From contig NZ_JAGIKV010000003.1 of assembly GCF_017874615.1 (NCBI RefSeq), forward strand, positions 186,001 through 250,000: a stretch of DNA of 64,000 bases, in the 5' to 3' direction. The notes under the pieces are model-generated. The model was given only the letters and a program-made list of their open reading frames with translations, made no database searches and was not told the DNA's origin. Below are positions 11,324-52,052 of this stretch, piece by piece. Both the position numbers and the translations under genes were made by a program. Source of the DNA: Paenibacillus xylanexedens (GTDB lineage Bacteria; Bacillota; Bacilli; Paenibacillales; Paenibacillaceae). Numbering within the stretch: position 1 is the stretch's first letter; the number at the start of each line of letters is the position of its first letter.

Positions 11324-11929
11324 TTAGCAGAGCGCAAACAAAATCTGTGTATTGGACAGTATACCTGGCGTGAGGAATGGATAGAAGTACCCCACCACAA
11401 AACCAAACAGATTAATCGCAGGCCACATCAGGTAGACATCATTGTATGTGAAGACAAGGGACCATCGGTTGTAGCAAAAGTTGGGCAGTGCACGTTCTTC
11501 GTTCTCTCGAGGTGCCGCTGCACCAGTCTGTGCAAATTGCACAGCTTGAGTGAGACTTTGCGGCTGTTGCTGGAGGAAGAGCGGAAGCAGACCCGGGCTG
11601 CTTTTGATCAGGTTATACAGAAAAAGCATTTCTGCCGGAGGCTGACCTACCGGACGAGGATAGGCACTAAGCAGGGTGGGCAGATTGCCTTGAGTCAGTT
11701 GCGCAGGTACTCCCGGTGCTGTACCCGGGATTGTACCTGGAATGCCTCCGGGGATATATGGACCGGGTCCTCCGCCTGGAATGTATGGAGGATAGGAGCC
11801 TTGACCGCCAGGTATACCCGGAAACGTCGGACCACCCGGTGTGCCGCCGCCACCTCCTGGGAACAGTGGAGGCAATTGAAAGGAACGGTCTTCTCCATAA
11901 CTTAGATAAGGGTTATATTCGTAATACAT
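11324..11929 (-). CDS. Proline/glycine-rich protein, unknown function
   Basis: A 201-residue protein I do not recognise. Residues about 15-80 are Pro/Gly/Tyr-rich with repeated I-P-G-G and P-G-G motifs, giving a disordered or collagen-like segment. The middle is Gln/Leu-rich (L-Q-Q-Q-P-Q-S-L-T-Q). The last 50 residues are aromatic and hydrophobic (N-F-C-Y-N-R-W, then F-G-F-V-V-G-Y-F-Y-P-F-L) and end in Cys. The ATG at 11929 is chosen because AGGAAGGA lies upstream; an in-frame ATG at 11971 has none. The composition resembles spore-coat or surface proteins, but no signal peptide is present. Confidence 0.6.
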   Translation of the reverse strand: MYYEYNPYLSYGEDRSFQLPPLFPGGGGGTPGGPTFPGIPGGQGSYPPYIPGGGPGPYIPGGIPGTIPGTAPGVPAQLTQGNLPTLLSAYPRPVGQPPAEMLFLYNLIKSSPGLLPLFLQQQPQSLTQAVQFAQTGAAAPRENEERALPNFCYNRWSLVFTYNDVYLMWPAINLFGFVVGYFYPFLTPGILSNTQILFALC

Positions 11930-12022
11930 ATACAGAACATCCTTCCTGTCGTCGTATTCTGCATTCAGCATATGGCGGCATCCGCCTATAGGTGAATTTC
12001 GTCAAGAAGATTTTCTATGATC

Positions 12023-12210
12023 TATATAGTTAACTAATCCTTTACACAAACGGAGAGGATAGAAAAAACCTGAAAAAGCGAAGCGCTCGCATTTATCACC
12101 GGATTTTCCCTTAGAGAAAAGGGAATCGAAAAAATCTGGGGATAACAGCGATGGGAAGGTTGTTCTATCATCGTAGTGTCAGTGTAAATAAATTTTAGTT
12201 CAACTGTATA
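12023..12210. mobile_element. MITE-like element, copy 1
   Basis: About 188 bases with terminal inverted repeats. The left end runs TATATAGTT, AACTAA, then TTTACAC; the right end is its inverse (GTGTAAAT ... TTAGTTCAACTGTATA). The interior holds GAAGCGCTCGC, then an imperfect hairpin made of TTATCACCGGATTTTCCCTT and AAGGGAATC ... CTGGGGATAACAG. The same ends and interior recur at 50799-51030. There is no ORF inside, so any movement would rely on a transposase elsewhere. Confidence 0.65.
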
Positions 12211-12228
12211 GCGCAGAGCATAATCGAA

Positions 12229-12257
12229 TTGACAACTGAACTGATAACAATTATCAT
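12229..12257 (+). promoter_or_regulatory. Promoter with overlapping Fur box
   Basis: Perfect -35 TTGACA (12229-12234), 17-base spacer, -10 TATCAT (12252-12257). TGATAACAATTATCA at 12242-12256 matches the 7-1-7 Fur consensus at all but one scored base and covers the spacer and -10. Iron-loaded Fur should therefore block transcription of the downstream siderophore-binding lipoprotein. Confidence 0.82.
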
Positions 12258-12391
12258 TGTCAATGGAATCGGACAAATGTACATACGGATATTATATGTA
12301 TCAATAATAGTGTCAATATTTTTGAACGTTGATATCTGTCACAATAGCGCCGAATAAGGTTTTCATAATGAATTGAAAGGGGATATATCAA

Positions 12392-13390
12392 GTGTTTAAG
12401 AGAAATAAAAAGATGATCATGCTTCTAATTACGGTGATGGTTATGTCTATCTGGTTGGCCGCGTGTGGAGCGAAGCCTGCAGAGAACGGAGCAGCAGGAG
12501 AGAACGATACAACAACGGAGACAGAGACACAAACAGAAGCCCCGACAGAACGCACATTAACGGATGCAATGGGACACGAGGTTACCATCCCGGCTAACCC
12601 TGAACGTGTCATCGCGTCTTATCTGGAAGACCATCTCGTTACACTCGGTGTTAAGCCAGCGGCACAGTGGTCCATCAACAACGGCAGTGGTTTGCAGGAT
12701 TATCTGCAAAATGATCTGAATGGCATACCTGGTATTGCAAGTGATCTACCTTTTGAAGCCATGGCTAGTTTCTCACCAGACCTGATTATTATGGGTTCTG
12801 AAAGTACAGTTGAAGGGGAGAAATACGAACAGTACAACAAAATTGCCCCTACGTATGTACTCGGAGATGAGGTCAACAAGGATTGGCGTCAGGCTCTGCT
12901 CAAGATCGGCGAGCTTCTGAACAAATCGGATGTAGCGCAGAAGGCGCTTGATGATTATGATGCCAAAGCAAAGGAAATCAAAGAAAAAGTAACTGCTGTT
13001 ACTGGAGGAACAAAATCCGCCGCAGCGTTGTGGTTATTCAATAACAAGTTTTATGTTGTAAGCAACAATGTTTCCAGTGGTGAAGTGATGTACAACGAAC
13101 TTGGACTTGCAGAGCCTAATGTTGTGAAGGAAGCATCCGCGAAGGCAACGGGTAACTGGTCTGAGATTTCATTGGAGAAGATCGCGGAAATGGACGCAGA
13201 CTATCTATTCCTGGTGAACAGTGACAAGGGAGCAGGCTCAGAAGCGCTGAAAGATGCCGTATGGCAGAGCATCCCTGCTGTAAAGACAGGTAATGTGTTT
13301 GAATTTGAAAGCACAAGCAGCTGGTTGTACAGTGGCGTTCAAGCAAATACGCAAATTCTGCAAGATATTCAAAGCAGTATTGTGAAGTAA
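12392..13390 (+). CDS. Iron-siderophore ABC transporter substrate-binding lipoprotein
   Basis: A 332-residue class III binding lipoprotein that captures ferric siderophores outside the membrane. The N terminus has a short positively charged stretch, a hydrophobic segment and a lipobox ending W-L-A-A-C-G, so it should be lipid-anchored. A 25-residue Glu/Thr-rich linker follows, then two lobes. The first contains T-D-A-M-G-H-E-V-T-I-P-A-N-P-E-R-V, the typical FecB/FhuD opening. The start is GTG with AAAGGGG nine bases upstream. A Fur-box promoter drives it. No permease or ATPase gene is adjacent, so it is an orphan binding protein that must use a transporter encoded elsewhere. Confidence 0.88.
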   Translation: MFKRNKKMIMLLITVMVMSIWLAACGAKPAENGAAGENDTTTETETQTEAPTERTLTDAMGHEVTIPANPERVIASYLEDHLVTLGVKPAAQWSINNGSGLQDYLQNDLNGIPGIASDLPFEAMASFSPDLIIMGSESTVEGEKYEQYNKIAPTYVLGDEVNKDWRQALLKIGELLNKSDVAQKALDDYDAKAKEIKEKVTAVTGGTKSAAALWLFNNKFYVVSNNVSSGEVMYNELGLAEPNVVKEASAKATGNWSEISLEKIAEMDADYLFLVNSDKGAGSEALKDAVWQSIPAVKTGNVFEFESTSSWLYSGVQANTQILQDIQSSIVK

Positions 13391-49078: not shown

Positions 49079-50797
49079 ATGACACAACGAATGGTAGAGA
49101 AGATGTCGAAAGAGCAACAGTATCTTGTAAATCAGTCCATGTTGATGATGGATAGCTTCTATGACAAGGAAATGGATCTGCTTCGTAGTTTCGAAGAAGA
49201 GGATTCATCGCAGCACAGCACACGAGCCAGTGCACATTATGCGCTCGGATTGTTAATTCGAAATGAGTCTGGTGATGTGGAACGCGCGATACGAGTGTTC
49301 CACAAGGTGCTCGATGTTCAATATGACGCTCCAGATGAGATCTATCACGGAACCTTCGCGACCCGACCCAATGAGTTGCATCCACCAGCGGGTCACTATG
49401 CTTGGAAATCTTTTGCGCCAGGCACGGCCTATTTCCTGGAACGCACCTTTGAGAAGGTGTCTGCGCAGTTTATCCATAAACTACAGGAAGAGGGTTCTCT
49501 GCTAACAGAGGTAGCAGACCCCAAACAATTGAAACACCTTTTTTATTCGGCAGTGAATCAGATTCTGCCACCGGTCTGGATCAGTTATGATCCCAACTGG
49601 CGCGAGTTTATCGCTTGTGTCTGTGTGGTTGTAACTGCCGAATTCGCCGAACTTATGCCGGAGACACTCATGAAGCGGATGGATCATGCAATGGAGTTGG
49701 CTGTACAAGGGTCAATAGAACGCAGGTTATCCGACGTAATCCCAATGAACACGAATATTGAGTTGATGCACATTTTCATCACCCACTACTACGGTCACCG
49801 CTTGAACCGGACAGAATGGATTCAGCATTCGGATGAACAGGCAGAAGGATTGATGAAGGAGTTTGAACAATACGACGGTACATTCGCGGAGTTCAATACT
49901 ACAACCTATTATGGCGTCGATCTGTCCGTGCTTGGCATGTATCGAAAGTATGGTCTCACCGAACGTTTGGTTGAAATTGGACACCGGATCGAACACGGGT
50001 TGTGGAATAACATTGCGCTATACTACAATGCCAACCTCGAGAATCTCTCCGGCCCATTCTCTCGGGCGTACGACATGGAGATGCGAGAGCATAGTTCAAT
50101 TGGTGTATTTATCTATCTTTTGCTTGGTGAAGGGTATGAGTATCTGACAGGCATCAACTGTGAGTCAGGCCATGATCCACTGATTGCTCTCCTTGGAGTA
50201 GATGTGCCCGCGGAAGCCGTGCCGTATTTCAAGGCTCATCAAAAGGATCGGCTTGTGCAGAAACAGTTCATGGAACTGTGTGAGCGCAATGATCCAACGT
50301 CTAACCGGAATCTATGTACGGCCAAAGCCTGGGTCGGTGAGGAGCGAATGATCGGGGCCATGTCGGGAAGTGTGAATACGAACGGACAGATGCATCCCGC
50401 CACGATCCACTGGCAGACAGAGACGGGGGAGCGTTATTATCTTCGCTTGATACGCCGTGAGGTAGGCGAGGGGTGGAACAGTCATCTGCGCGGAGTAACG
50501 TTTGATGCGGATCTCACACCAGATTCGTTAACCATTGATGTGGAGCTGGATACGGCGGAAGAGATCGACGTTTATTTTGAAATCAGAGGCCCCTCCCTTC
50601 GTCAGGAGGATATTACACCAGCGTTATGGCAGTTCCCTGGACTTACGTGTACCGTGAAGGCTGAGGCACCTGAACCATCCGTGTTGATGTACGTGAATCA
50701 TGTGGAGATCATCTATCGTTATGTGCCTGGAACGACTGCAAACAAGATGAGATTTGAATTGACCCTCCATGAAGACAACGGTATGAGGAATAAATAG
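49079..50797 (+). CDS. Unrecognised 572-residue protein of the sugar island
   Basis: A large cytoplasmic protein (no signal peptide) I cannot assign. Residues about 1-390 look all-alpha with aromatic and His/Asp-containing loops (H-P-P-A-G-H-Y-A-W, L-P-P-V-W-I-S-Y-D-P-N-W-R-E-F, F-N-T-T-T-Y-Y-G-V-D-L, N-L-S-G-P-F-S-R-A-Y-D-M-E-M-R-E), like an alpha/alpha toroid of glycoside hydrolases or lyases. Residues about 400-572 look all-beta (I-H-W-Q-T-E-T-G-E-R-Y-Y-L-R-L-I-R-R, then long strand repeats), like the C-terminal sandwich of such enzymes. GGGAGGT is eight bases before the ATG. It is in the operon with the ABC transporter and isomerase, so intracellular processing of the imported oligosaccharide is the best guess. 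Confidence 0.75.
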   Translation: MTQRMVEKMSKEQQYLVNQSMLMMDSFYDKEMDLLRSFEEEDSSQHSTRASAHYALGLLIRNESGDVERAIRVFHKVLDVQYDAPDEIYHGTFATRPNELHPPAGHYAWKSFAPGTAYFLERTFEKVSAQFIHKLQEEGSLLTEVADPKQLKHLFYSAVNQILPPVWISYDPNWREFIACVCVVVTAEFAELMPETLMKRMDHAMELAVQGSIERRLSDVIPMNTNIELMHIFITHYYGHRLNRTEWIQHSDEQAEGLMKEFEQYDGTFAEFNTTTYYGVDLSVLGMYRKYGLTERLVEIGHRIEHGLWNNIALYYNANLENLSGPFSRAYDMEMREHSSIGVFIYLLLGEGYEYLTGINCESGHDPLIALLGVDVPAEAVPYFKAHQKDRLVQKQFMELCERNDPTSNRNLCTAKAWVGEERMIGAMSGSVNTNGQMHPATIHWQTETGERYYLRLIRREVGEGWNSHLRGVTFDADLTPDSLTIDVELDTAEEIDVYFEIRGPSLRQEDITPALWQFPGLTCTVKAEAPEPSVLMYVNHVEIIYRYVPGTTANKMRFELTLHEDNGMRNK

Positions 50798-50798
50798 G

Positions 50799-51030
50799 TA
50801 TATAAGATGAACTGAACATTTACACGAGATCGAAGAGTGCAGAACCGATCTGAAGAAGCGGAGCGTTCGCCTGAAAGCTTTCTGCAAGAAAGCTGCATCG
50901 GAAGCATAAGCTATCACCGGATTTTTCCCTTTGAAGAAGGGGATCAAAAAAATCTGGGGATAACAGCGATCGGAAGATGGTACTGCAATTGGAGTGATCT
51001 AGTGTAAAGTTTATTGGTTCAACTTATATA
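50799..51030. mobile_element. MITE-like element, copy 2
   Basis: About 232 bases. The left end TATATAAG-A-TGAAC ... TTTACAC and the right end GTGTAAAG ... GGTTCAACTTATATA are inverted repeats of about 27 bases. The interior shares the GAAGCGGAGCGTTCGC block and the hairpin CTATCACCGGATTTTTCCCT / GGGGATC ... CTGGGGATAACAG with copy 1 at 12023, plus an extra GAAAGCTTTCTGCAAGAAAGCTGC-like hairpin. It begins one base after the stop of the 572-residue gene and ends 56 bases before the isomerase gene. Confidence 0.68.
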
Positions 51031-51086
51031 GATAGAGATAAATGGAATATGAATGGGCGATAGAATGAGAGACAGGAGGACCAATC

Positions 51087-52052
51087 ATGTATACGGACAA
51101 ACAGGAGTATTCGTTCTCAACATGTTGGAATATTAAACGTTATACGAACGGACAAGGTATGATCGAGGAGATCAAGTCTCTTGGATTCAAACAGGTTGAA
51201 CTGAATTATAACGTAACGGAAGAGATGCTGCAGACGATAGAACCGATGATTGAACGGGGACAGATCGGTGTATCCAGTGTGCATAATACATTCCCGCATG
51301 TGGCTGATCCGGATTACGGGACGGATTCCGTCCTGCTTGGATTCGATGATGAGACGCGCCGCAAACGGGCGATTGAGCTGTTACTTCGCTCAGCCGAGTA
51401 CGCACATCGTTATGGTGCCAAGGCTGTTGTTGTACATCCCGGTGAGGTTCCGTTTGAATACAATATAGATGAAGCATTGAAAAAGATATACCACGATCAG
51501 GGGCCGGATTCACCGGCATATCAATCTTTATGGCAAGAGATGCTGGAGAAGCGGGAAGATGGCAGCGCATATTACCTGAGCCGGATTCAGGAGAGTCTGG
51601 AAGAGGTGTGTGACTTGTCGGAGCAGCGAGGATACGGGGTGAATTTCGGTATTGAGACCCGTTCACGCTGTTATCAGATGCCGACTTTGCACGAAGCGGG
51701 AACGATTATTGGACAAATGAAGGGCGCGCCGCTTGGTCTCTGGTACGATATTGGTCACGGCATGATGATGGATCGAATGGGCCTATATGACAATGTACGT
51801 GAGGCCAACGCGTTGATTGATCACGTGGTTGGCGTGCATATTCATGAAACTGTAGGGTTGGCAGATCATTGGTGTCCATACATCCATAGTAAAGACATGA
51901 CCTTTTTTGATTCATTTTTGGATATCATTGATCGTTCGCCAGTGAAAGTATATGAGCTGAAAGCCGCGTGTACACCGGAAGAAATCGATGAGAGTCATGG
52001 AATAATCACGGCTCGTATTGCTGAACGTCATGTGGCGCGTCAGCGCGGATAG
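51087..52052 (+). CDS. Sugar phosphate isomerase/epimerase (xylose isomerase-like TIM barrel)
   Basis: A 321-residue cytoplasmic TIM-barrel protein of the AP-endonuclease-2/xylose-isomerase-like superfamily. Probable metal ligands follow the family order: Glu in F-G-I-E-T-R, Asp/His in Y-D-I-G-H-G, His in V-H-I-H-E-T and a C-terminal Glu in Y-E-L-K-A. Members interconvert ketoses or inosose-like sugars. ACAGGAGGACC precedes the ATG. It lies at the end of the sugar island, separated from the upstream gene only by the MITE-like element, and a terminator follows. Confidence 0.82.
   Translation: MYTDKQEYSFSTCWNIKRYTNGQGMIEEIKSLGFKQVELNYNVTEEMLQTIEPMIERGQIGVSSVHNTFPHVADPDYGTDSVLLGFDDETRRKRAIELLLRSAEYAHRYGAKAVVVHPGEVPFEYNIDEALKKIYHDQGPDSPAYQSLWQEMLEKREDGSAYYLSRIQESLEEVCDLSEQRGYGVNFGIETRSRCYQMPTLHEAGTIIGQMKGAPLGLWYDIGHGMMMDRMGLYDNVREANALIDHVVGVHIHETVGLADHWCPYIHSKDMTFFDSFLDIIDRSPVKVYELKAACTPEEIDESHGIITARIAERHVARQRG

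Follow-up and report, generated by a model that had tools for sequence, protein, structure and literature searches.

For bacterial MITEs, the ends usually serve as the definition, and the inside is treated as filler. The Paenibacillus repeat family described here has ordinary ends and an inside that is conserved across genera and shaped on the sense strand. We found no paper on this family in open-licence PubMed Central, and we set it beside the described features of known repeats. RUP of Streptococcus pneumoniae, as presented in the relevant parts of its source, is a 107 bp repeat with ends like those of IS630-Spn1 that folds as RNA (PMC3049150). Our element shares with RUP a short, non-coding, high-copy form, IS630-family-like ends and RNA folding, but it is longer (190-270 bp), and the IS630 partner that is resident in pneumococcus was not found in the genome studied here. 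In the same account, pneumococcal repeats are over-represented between convergent genes (PMC3049150), whereas the Paenibacillus element lies in sense orientation in co-directional gaps. BOX of S. pneumoniae is described there as a structured RNA with a variable number of boxB modules, much like an arm that our element carries zero, one or two times, but BOX ends resemble ISSpn2 and not IS630 (PMC3049150). The bcr1-bcr3 repeats of the Bacillus cereus group are MITE-like and often lie in UTRs or operon gaps, with up to 130 copies of bcr1 per genome; their mobility is tied to a TTTAT motif, however, and the descriptive parts of these sources give no IS630-type ends (PMC3446304, PMC6542083). Judged by these descriptions, RUP appears closest by mechanism, BOX by its repeated inner module, and bcr1-bcr3 by copy number and location in mRNA.

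The window analyzed here is a 64,000-nucleotide stretch of the Paenibacillus xylanexedens genome (G000). A sequence-only reading had picked out two stretches in it as copies of one MITE-like family, with shared terminal repeats, a common block and a long hairpin. We find each of these features in place in both stretches, and both belong to the same family, but they are not like copies: copy 1 is a short form without a hairpin arm of ~38 nt that copy 2, a long form, possesses. The features are:

12023..12210, plus strand: copy 1, short (armless) form, both terminal TAs included (DNA and profile comparison)
50799..51030, plus strand: copy 2, one-armed long form, both terminal TAs included (DNA query and profile)
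50799..50815, plus strand: left terminal inverted repeat of copy 2, TATATAAGATGAACTGA (ends as in IS630-family elements of related genomes)
51014..51030, minus strand: right terminal inverted repeat of copy 2 (ends as in IS630-family elements of related genomes)
11324-11971, minus strand: ORF left of copy 1
12392-13390, plus strand: Peripla_BP_2 gene right of copy 1
49079-50797: gene upstream of copy 2, its stop 2 nt before the copy
51087-52052: AP_endonuc_2 gene downstream of copy 2, its start codon 56 nt past the end of the copy

Both copies fold more stably than shuffled sequences (z -6.55 for copy 1, 12020-12211; z -7.45 for copy 2, 50798-51031). The earlier statement that they contain no ORF is true in substance, as the frames listed across them are only short or overlapping ones, such as a 56 aa frame in copy 2 that starts with GTG and, crossing copy 1 on the minus strand, a TTG frame of 80 aa. 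A Fur-box-like palindrome, GATAACAATTATCATTGTC, lies at 12243-12261, in the gap that separates copy 1 from the Peripla_BP_2 gene (12392). Since this site is downstream of copy 1, its position suggests that copy 1 lies upstream of its neighbor gene's promoter and outside the leader of that gene.

With copy 2 as a DNA query, scoring 40 of 183 candidates yielded at least 43 matches in G000. With a sequence-only profile built from 31 copies and a limit of E 0.001, scoring 150 of 2567 candidates gave at least 157 matches in G000, of which copy 1 is one (E 1.8e-33), and the relative G016 gave 156 matches; one match is not always one whole copy, as some are halves of copies with two arms. The two window copies are thus not a chance pair, a point on which the sequence-only reading had proposed a whole-genome search. 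For analyses with flanks we used 113 of the 157 G000 matches, dropping those weaker than about E 1e-22, which included left halves of two-arm copies. Across 106 copies, identity to the nearest paralogue has a maximum of 94.8% and a median of 86%. All 60 Paenibacillus genomes drawn contain a profile match, eight of them with one or two only; in most of the rest, scoring ran to its ceiling of 36 candidates. At the level of the order, 45 of 79 genomes match, strongly within the genus and more weakly beyond it, in the family's other genera and a second family. Five genomes from four other genera gave at least 112, 45, 50, 31 and 16 matches (150 candidates scored each). An exact core pattern occurs in at least 80 records, which among the matches listed are all titled Paenibacillus and include P. 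amylolyticus, P. xylanexedens, P. pabuli, P. tundrae and P. illinoisensis. We rejected carriage by phages or plasmids: no phage record matched, and the single matching Paenibacillus plasmid record, a 2.7-Mb record of Paenibacillus cellulosilyticus in the plasmid collection (NZ_CP054613.1:434424-434467), matches the arm alone, at 91%. The 16-base core word AACAGCGATCGGAAGG occurs in twelve viral-contig stretches (L538-L549).

The element is built from nested inverted blocks. Inward of the common terminal inverted repeat, CTATATAAGTTGAACTAA, lies a second inverted block (TTTACAC/GTGTAAA), then an internal loop with CGGAG on either side, and then a closing stem in which GACAGAA..AACCT pairs with AGGTT..TTCTGTC. 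The closing stem encloses a small hairpin, GCGAAGCGTTCGC, an optional arm that carries the hairpin AGCTTTCTGAAAGAAAGCT, and a long central hairpin, TTATCCCCGGATTTT/AAAATCTGGGGATAA. There are zero, one or two arms, and a single arm may occupy either of two positions. Among close species the arm comes and goes at the orthologous sites of both window copies, and its presence likewise varies at no fewer than 7 of 15 further orthologous sites; armed and armless forms are both present in other genera. Three G000 copies (C8:6940-7207, C8:29652-29916 and C5:250444-250710) have the arm twice in tandem, and their profile matches are two overlapping halves. At another G000 site, C25:95351-95538, the orthologues in G002 and G016 hold a different subfamily, a swap that is due to gene conversion or repeated insertion.

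Comparison of orthologous sites shows that copies are present in some close relatives and missing from others. The copy 1 site is occupied in G000 and G011 and empty in G002, G022, G008, G016 and G023; the copy 2 site is occupied in G000, G002, G022, G011, G023 and G008 (in an armless form in G008) and empty in G016. More distant genomes also have neither copy, with flanks that align poorly there. We looked up 15 further sites, all with a sense gene just downstream, in G002 and G016, obtained 28 of the 30 loci, and found several sites empty in one or both genomes. At C3_149809 the empty site has a single TA exactly where the occupied site has a TA at both ends, and the empty sites of C7_172951, C9_209114 and C1_30497 have the same TA pattern with minor flank differences. 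The empty copy 2 site contains the TA with a differing left flank; for copy 1 no TA was seen at the empty site in relatives, the empty C5_269549 site reads TC, and C6_154468, C12_57543 and C13_144714 gave no clear reading of the junction. In the 113 copies, 58 left and 59 right ends could be read outward of the TA; the adjoining base is C in 62% of these left ends and G in 64% of the right ones, so that the target resembles CTAG, the target preferred by IS630 elements.

The sequence-only reading had also proposed looking for an IS with the same ends, and such elements exist in three related genomes. The transposase domain of IS630, DDE_3, was matched in 13 of 40 Paenibacillus genomes, and 4 of the 30 DDE_3 loci carry the element's 19-bp end on both sides with 0-4 mismatches per side. 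These loci, and a weaker fifth, are:

L253, G006: 1166 bp, end mismatches 0 and 1 of 19
L242, G037: 1167 bp, end mismatches 2 and 1 of 19
L267, G034: 1128 bp, end mismatches 1 and 2 of 19
L246, G034: 1135 bp, end mismatches 4 and 4 of 19
L245, G004: weaker fifth, end mismatches 5 and 3 of 19

The first four share with the element not only the 19-bp ends but also the TA with C and G flanks, and unlike the element they carry transposase frames. Their similarity to it covers only the first ~19 bases, and none of three core words tested is present in them. L267 has a GTTCAAC variant that is also found in some element copies. In 25 or 26 of the 30 DDE_3 loci, at least one side is without such an end; L259, L241, L240 and L251 keep one matching end. 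No DDE_3 match was found in G000, G002, G011, G016, G022 or G023, nor in most high-copy genomes, and in 11 regions (300 nt per side) we saw no autonomous element flanked by half-length matches.

As expected of an IS630-type MITE, then, the family shares its terminal inverted repeat with an IS630-family element, inserts at TA with the TA duplicated, has occupied and empty sites, and contains no transposase gene; an autonomous partner in the same genome is missing from G000 by the DDE_3 search. For the same reason a resident IS630 transposase is not supported as the present mobilizer. Because G000 has no DDE_3 match and most DDE_3 loci lack the ends, sequence comparison indicates that the element's ends are those of one IS630 branch, whose partner is not resident in the window's genome. 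With no mobilizer found there, spread in this genome is probably over, and the age of the copies, as judged from paralogue identity, fits the absence of a transposase. That the partner occurs only in related genomes lowers the estimate of current activity, not that of the kinship of the ends. Further copies and empty sites, whose consistent absence the sequence-only reading had named as evidence against its proposal, both exist, and its two suggestions, that the family is mobile but non-autonomous or that it is a structured RNA, each hold: the first through scattered copies, occupied and empty orthologous sites, TA at the junctions and IS630-family elements with the same ends, the second through the covariation and folding asymmetry described below.

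The core is retained in other genera while the ends change: copies in G122 have long terminal stems of quite different sequence, whereas those in G101 retain ends like TATAGATTGAAC. In 31 copies, 91.6% of 1637 cells in the stems pair and 23 of 54 stem pairs change on both sides, values that none of 500 shuffles reached in either case (3/500 for further pair types), although related copies can beat such controls without selection and the structure derives partly from the same alignment. Versions of the structure slid along the alignment pair at 37-47%. In an unsupervised covariation analysis the three highest-ranked pairs are due to the arm variant and several more, down to rank 17, to subfamily linkage; helix pairs are interspersed with these from rank 4 on, lending the helices weak support. 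The sense RNA is predicted to be more stable than the antisense RNA in 90/106 copies in G000, 90/107 in G016 and 27/28 in other genera. By context, the G000 counts are 53/58, with 8/9 for reversed, 19/24 for divergent and 9/14 for convergent copies. The asymmetry persists with the terminal parts cut off (76/93). Such asymmetry would not be expected for a DNA palindrome kept for a transposase, and it argues that the sense RNA, beyond the palindrome, is kept folded. As the copies share descent, p values are overstated, and the agreement of other genera is better support for strand asymmetry than they are. In a duplex test, only 8 of 106 copies reached the 1% mark.

We next consider where the copies lie, using gene contexts from our own ORF caller. 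Genes flank 112 of the 113 G000 copies on both sides: 61 copies are sense with both genes, 9 are antisense to both, 26 lie in divergent gaps and 16 in convergent gaps, and three copies were flagged within an ORF. From G016 we used 131 of 156 matches, 115 of them with flanks, and counted 76 sense, 11 antisense, 11 divergent and 17 convergent copies; co-directional gaps hold 87 of these 115 copies versus 232 of 365 copy-free gaps (loci of named Paenibacillus). Where a sense gene lies downstream, the right end of the element is 15-45 nt before the called start codon in 47/87 copies in G000 and 44/87 in G016. We saw no good -35 by eye when looking for a promoter in the right end. In 28 copies from other genera the bias is 20:8 with respect to the upstream gene and 16:12 with respect to the downstream gene, so placement before start codons is a feature of the genus and is not demonstrated family-wide. 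Replication strand is not supported as the cause of orientation. Assuming an origin near contig position 0 and a terminus at the middle, the leading strand carries 98 of 131 G016 copies and 284 of 363 ORFs. Next to co-directional genes on the lagging strand, however, the element has the orientation of the gene in 8 of 9 cases, a small number.

Taken together, we consider it probable that this is an IS630-type MITE with an RNA-selected core, a MITE-like family moved in trans by IS630-family transposases whose cargo is a conserved, asymmetric RNA hairpin and whose sense copies are tolerated in transcribed gaps. An IS630-family transposase would recognize the shared end CTATATAAGTTGAACTAA and cut there, and the element would insert at a TA; shared ends and empty sites with TA are observed, and the movement itself is what they imply. 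When transcribed in sense, the element would fold as a closed hairpin that, according to folding predictions, leaves the adjoining ribosome-binding site open. For the 19 nt that precede the start codon, openness is predicted to be 0.523 with the element in sense, 0.529 with it removed and 0.445 with it reversed (p 0.011; 49 copies), and 0.510, 0.516 and 0.419 in a second set (p 0.0007; 51 copies), values that may favor the sense form since the real flanks evolved alongside it. Sense copies could then stay in transcribed gaps, often right before the start codons of unrelated genes, while reversed copies would be harmful and lost, as orientation and predicted folding suggest. If sense copies are quiet and reversed ones harmful, the observed sense bias is what would be left over, but as the youngest copies are biased as strongly as the others, it may also reflect an insertion preference. 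The core may in addition have an active role, for example in stabilizing mRNA.

The conservation of the core under changing ends also permits a broader view, which we put forward tentatively: the core may be an RNA unit older than the transposon ends, a portable, modular Paenibacillaceae leader RNA with zero, one or two exchangeable arms and different mobile ends in each genus, present in more than 100 copies, many of them before housekeeping genes, with a common RNA-level role such as shielding or stabilizing mRNA.

We think it rather doubtful that the core is an active cis-regulatory or mRNA-stabilizing leader that binds a protein or nuclease and benefits downstream genes, with the IS630 ends as its vehicle. 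Retention of the core across genera under differing ends, the sense bias and position before start codons, and the covarying stems would all be in keeping with such a role, as would the B. cereus repeats found in mRNAs, where bcr3 is correlated with mRNA decay rate in the part of the source that treats it (PMC3446304). The downstream genes, however, include those for thymidylate synthase, SAICAR synthetase, an SMC protein, anthranilate synthase, UvrD helicase and L-arabinose isomerase, and among 16 outside the window tested with Pfam no common pathway was found. A given gene can also have a copy in one species and none in a close relative, so that no individual copy is required, and 27 of the 112 placed G000 copies either have no sense gene after them or are reversed (16 are convergent and 9 antisense, and the others lie far from a start).

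It is unlikely that the family is a plain IS630-type MITE whose hairpin matters as DNA only and whose orientation reflects an insertion preference near start codons. The ends, TA and empty sites fit this explanation, young and old copies are equally biased in orientation (21:4 in the youngest third, 21:2 and 16:3 in the others), and terminal stems alone are symmetric between strands (sense more stable in 43/93). It does not account for the folding asymmetry of the core, seen in other genera as well, for the conservation of the core while the ends change, or for the departures from Watson-Crick pairing in the closing stem, which in 106 copies are G-T in 35 cases versus A-C in 10. Corresponding counts are 159 versus 80 in the inner part and 170 versus 142 in the terminal stem; by pairs, G-T is ahead in 33 and A-C in 17 (p 0.03), and one pair is G-T in 77 of the 106 copies.

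Movement by a Y1 (REP/IS200-like) transposase or by reverse transcription, which hairpin shape, high copy number and sense bias might recall and for which we have no direct evidence, is very improbable and was rejected, because the ends are of IS630 type and both enzymes are absent from high-copy genomes: Y1_Tnp has no match in 25 of 60 Paenibacillus genomes, including copy-rich G016, G003, G023 and G033, and RVT_1 none in 8 of 23, including G002, G003, G008, G011, G033, G048 and G056.

An IS630-type MITE with an RNA-selected core makes a standing question testable, namely whether a quiet RNA lets such repeats be tolerated or a useful RNA causes them to be kept. Many matched pairs are available, as a genome can hold more than 100 copies, close species naturally differ in having or lacking them, and some copies are reversed. 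Rfam covariance models gave no match to the element in the window at gathering score, and six loci holding copies likewise had no match with E as high as 1; many Paenibacillus intergenic regions and probable 5' leaders therefore hold a 190-270 nt insert outside Rfam families. Near one copy, a cobalamin riboswitch (RF00174, 56.5 bits) lies on the minus strand at L003:1860-1991.
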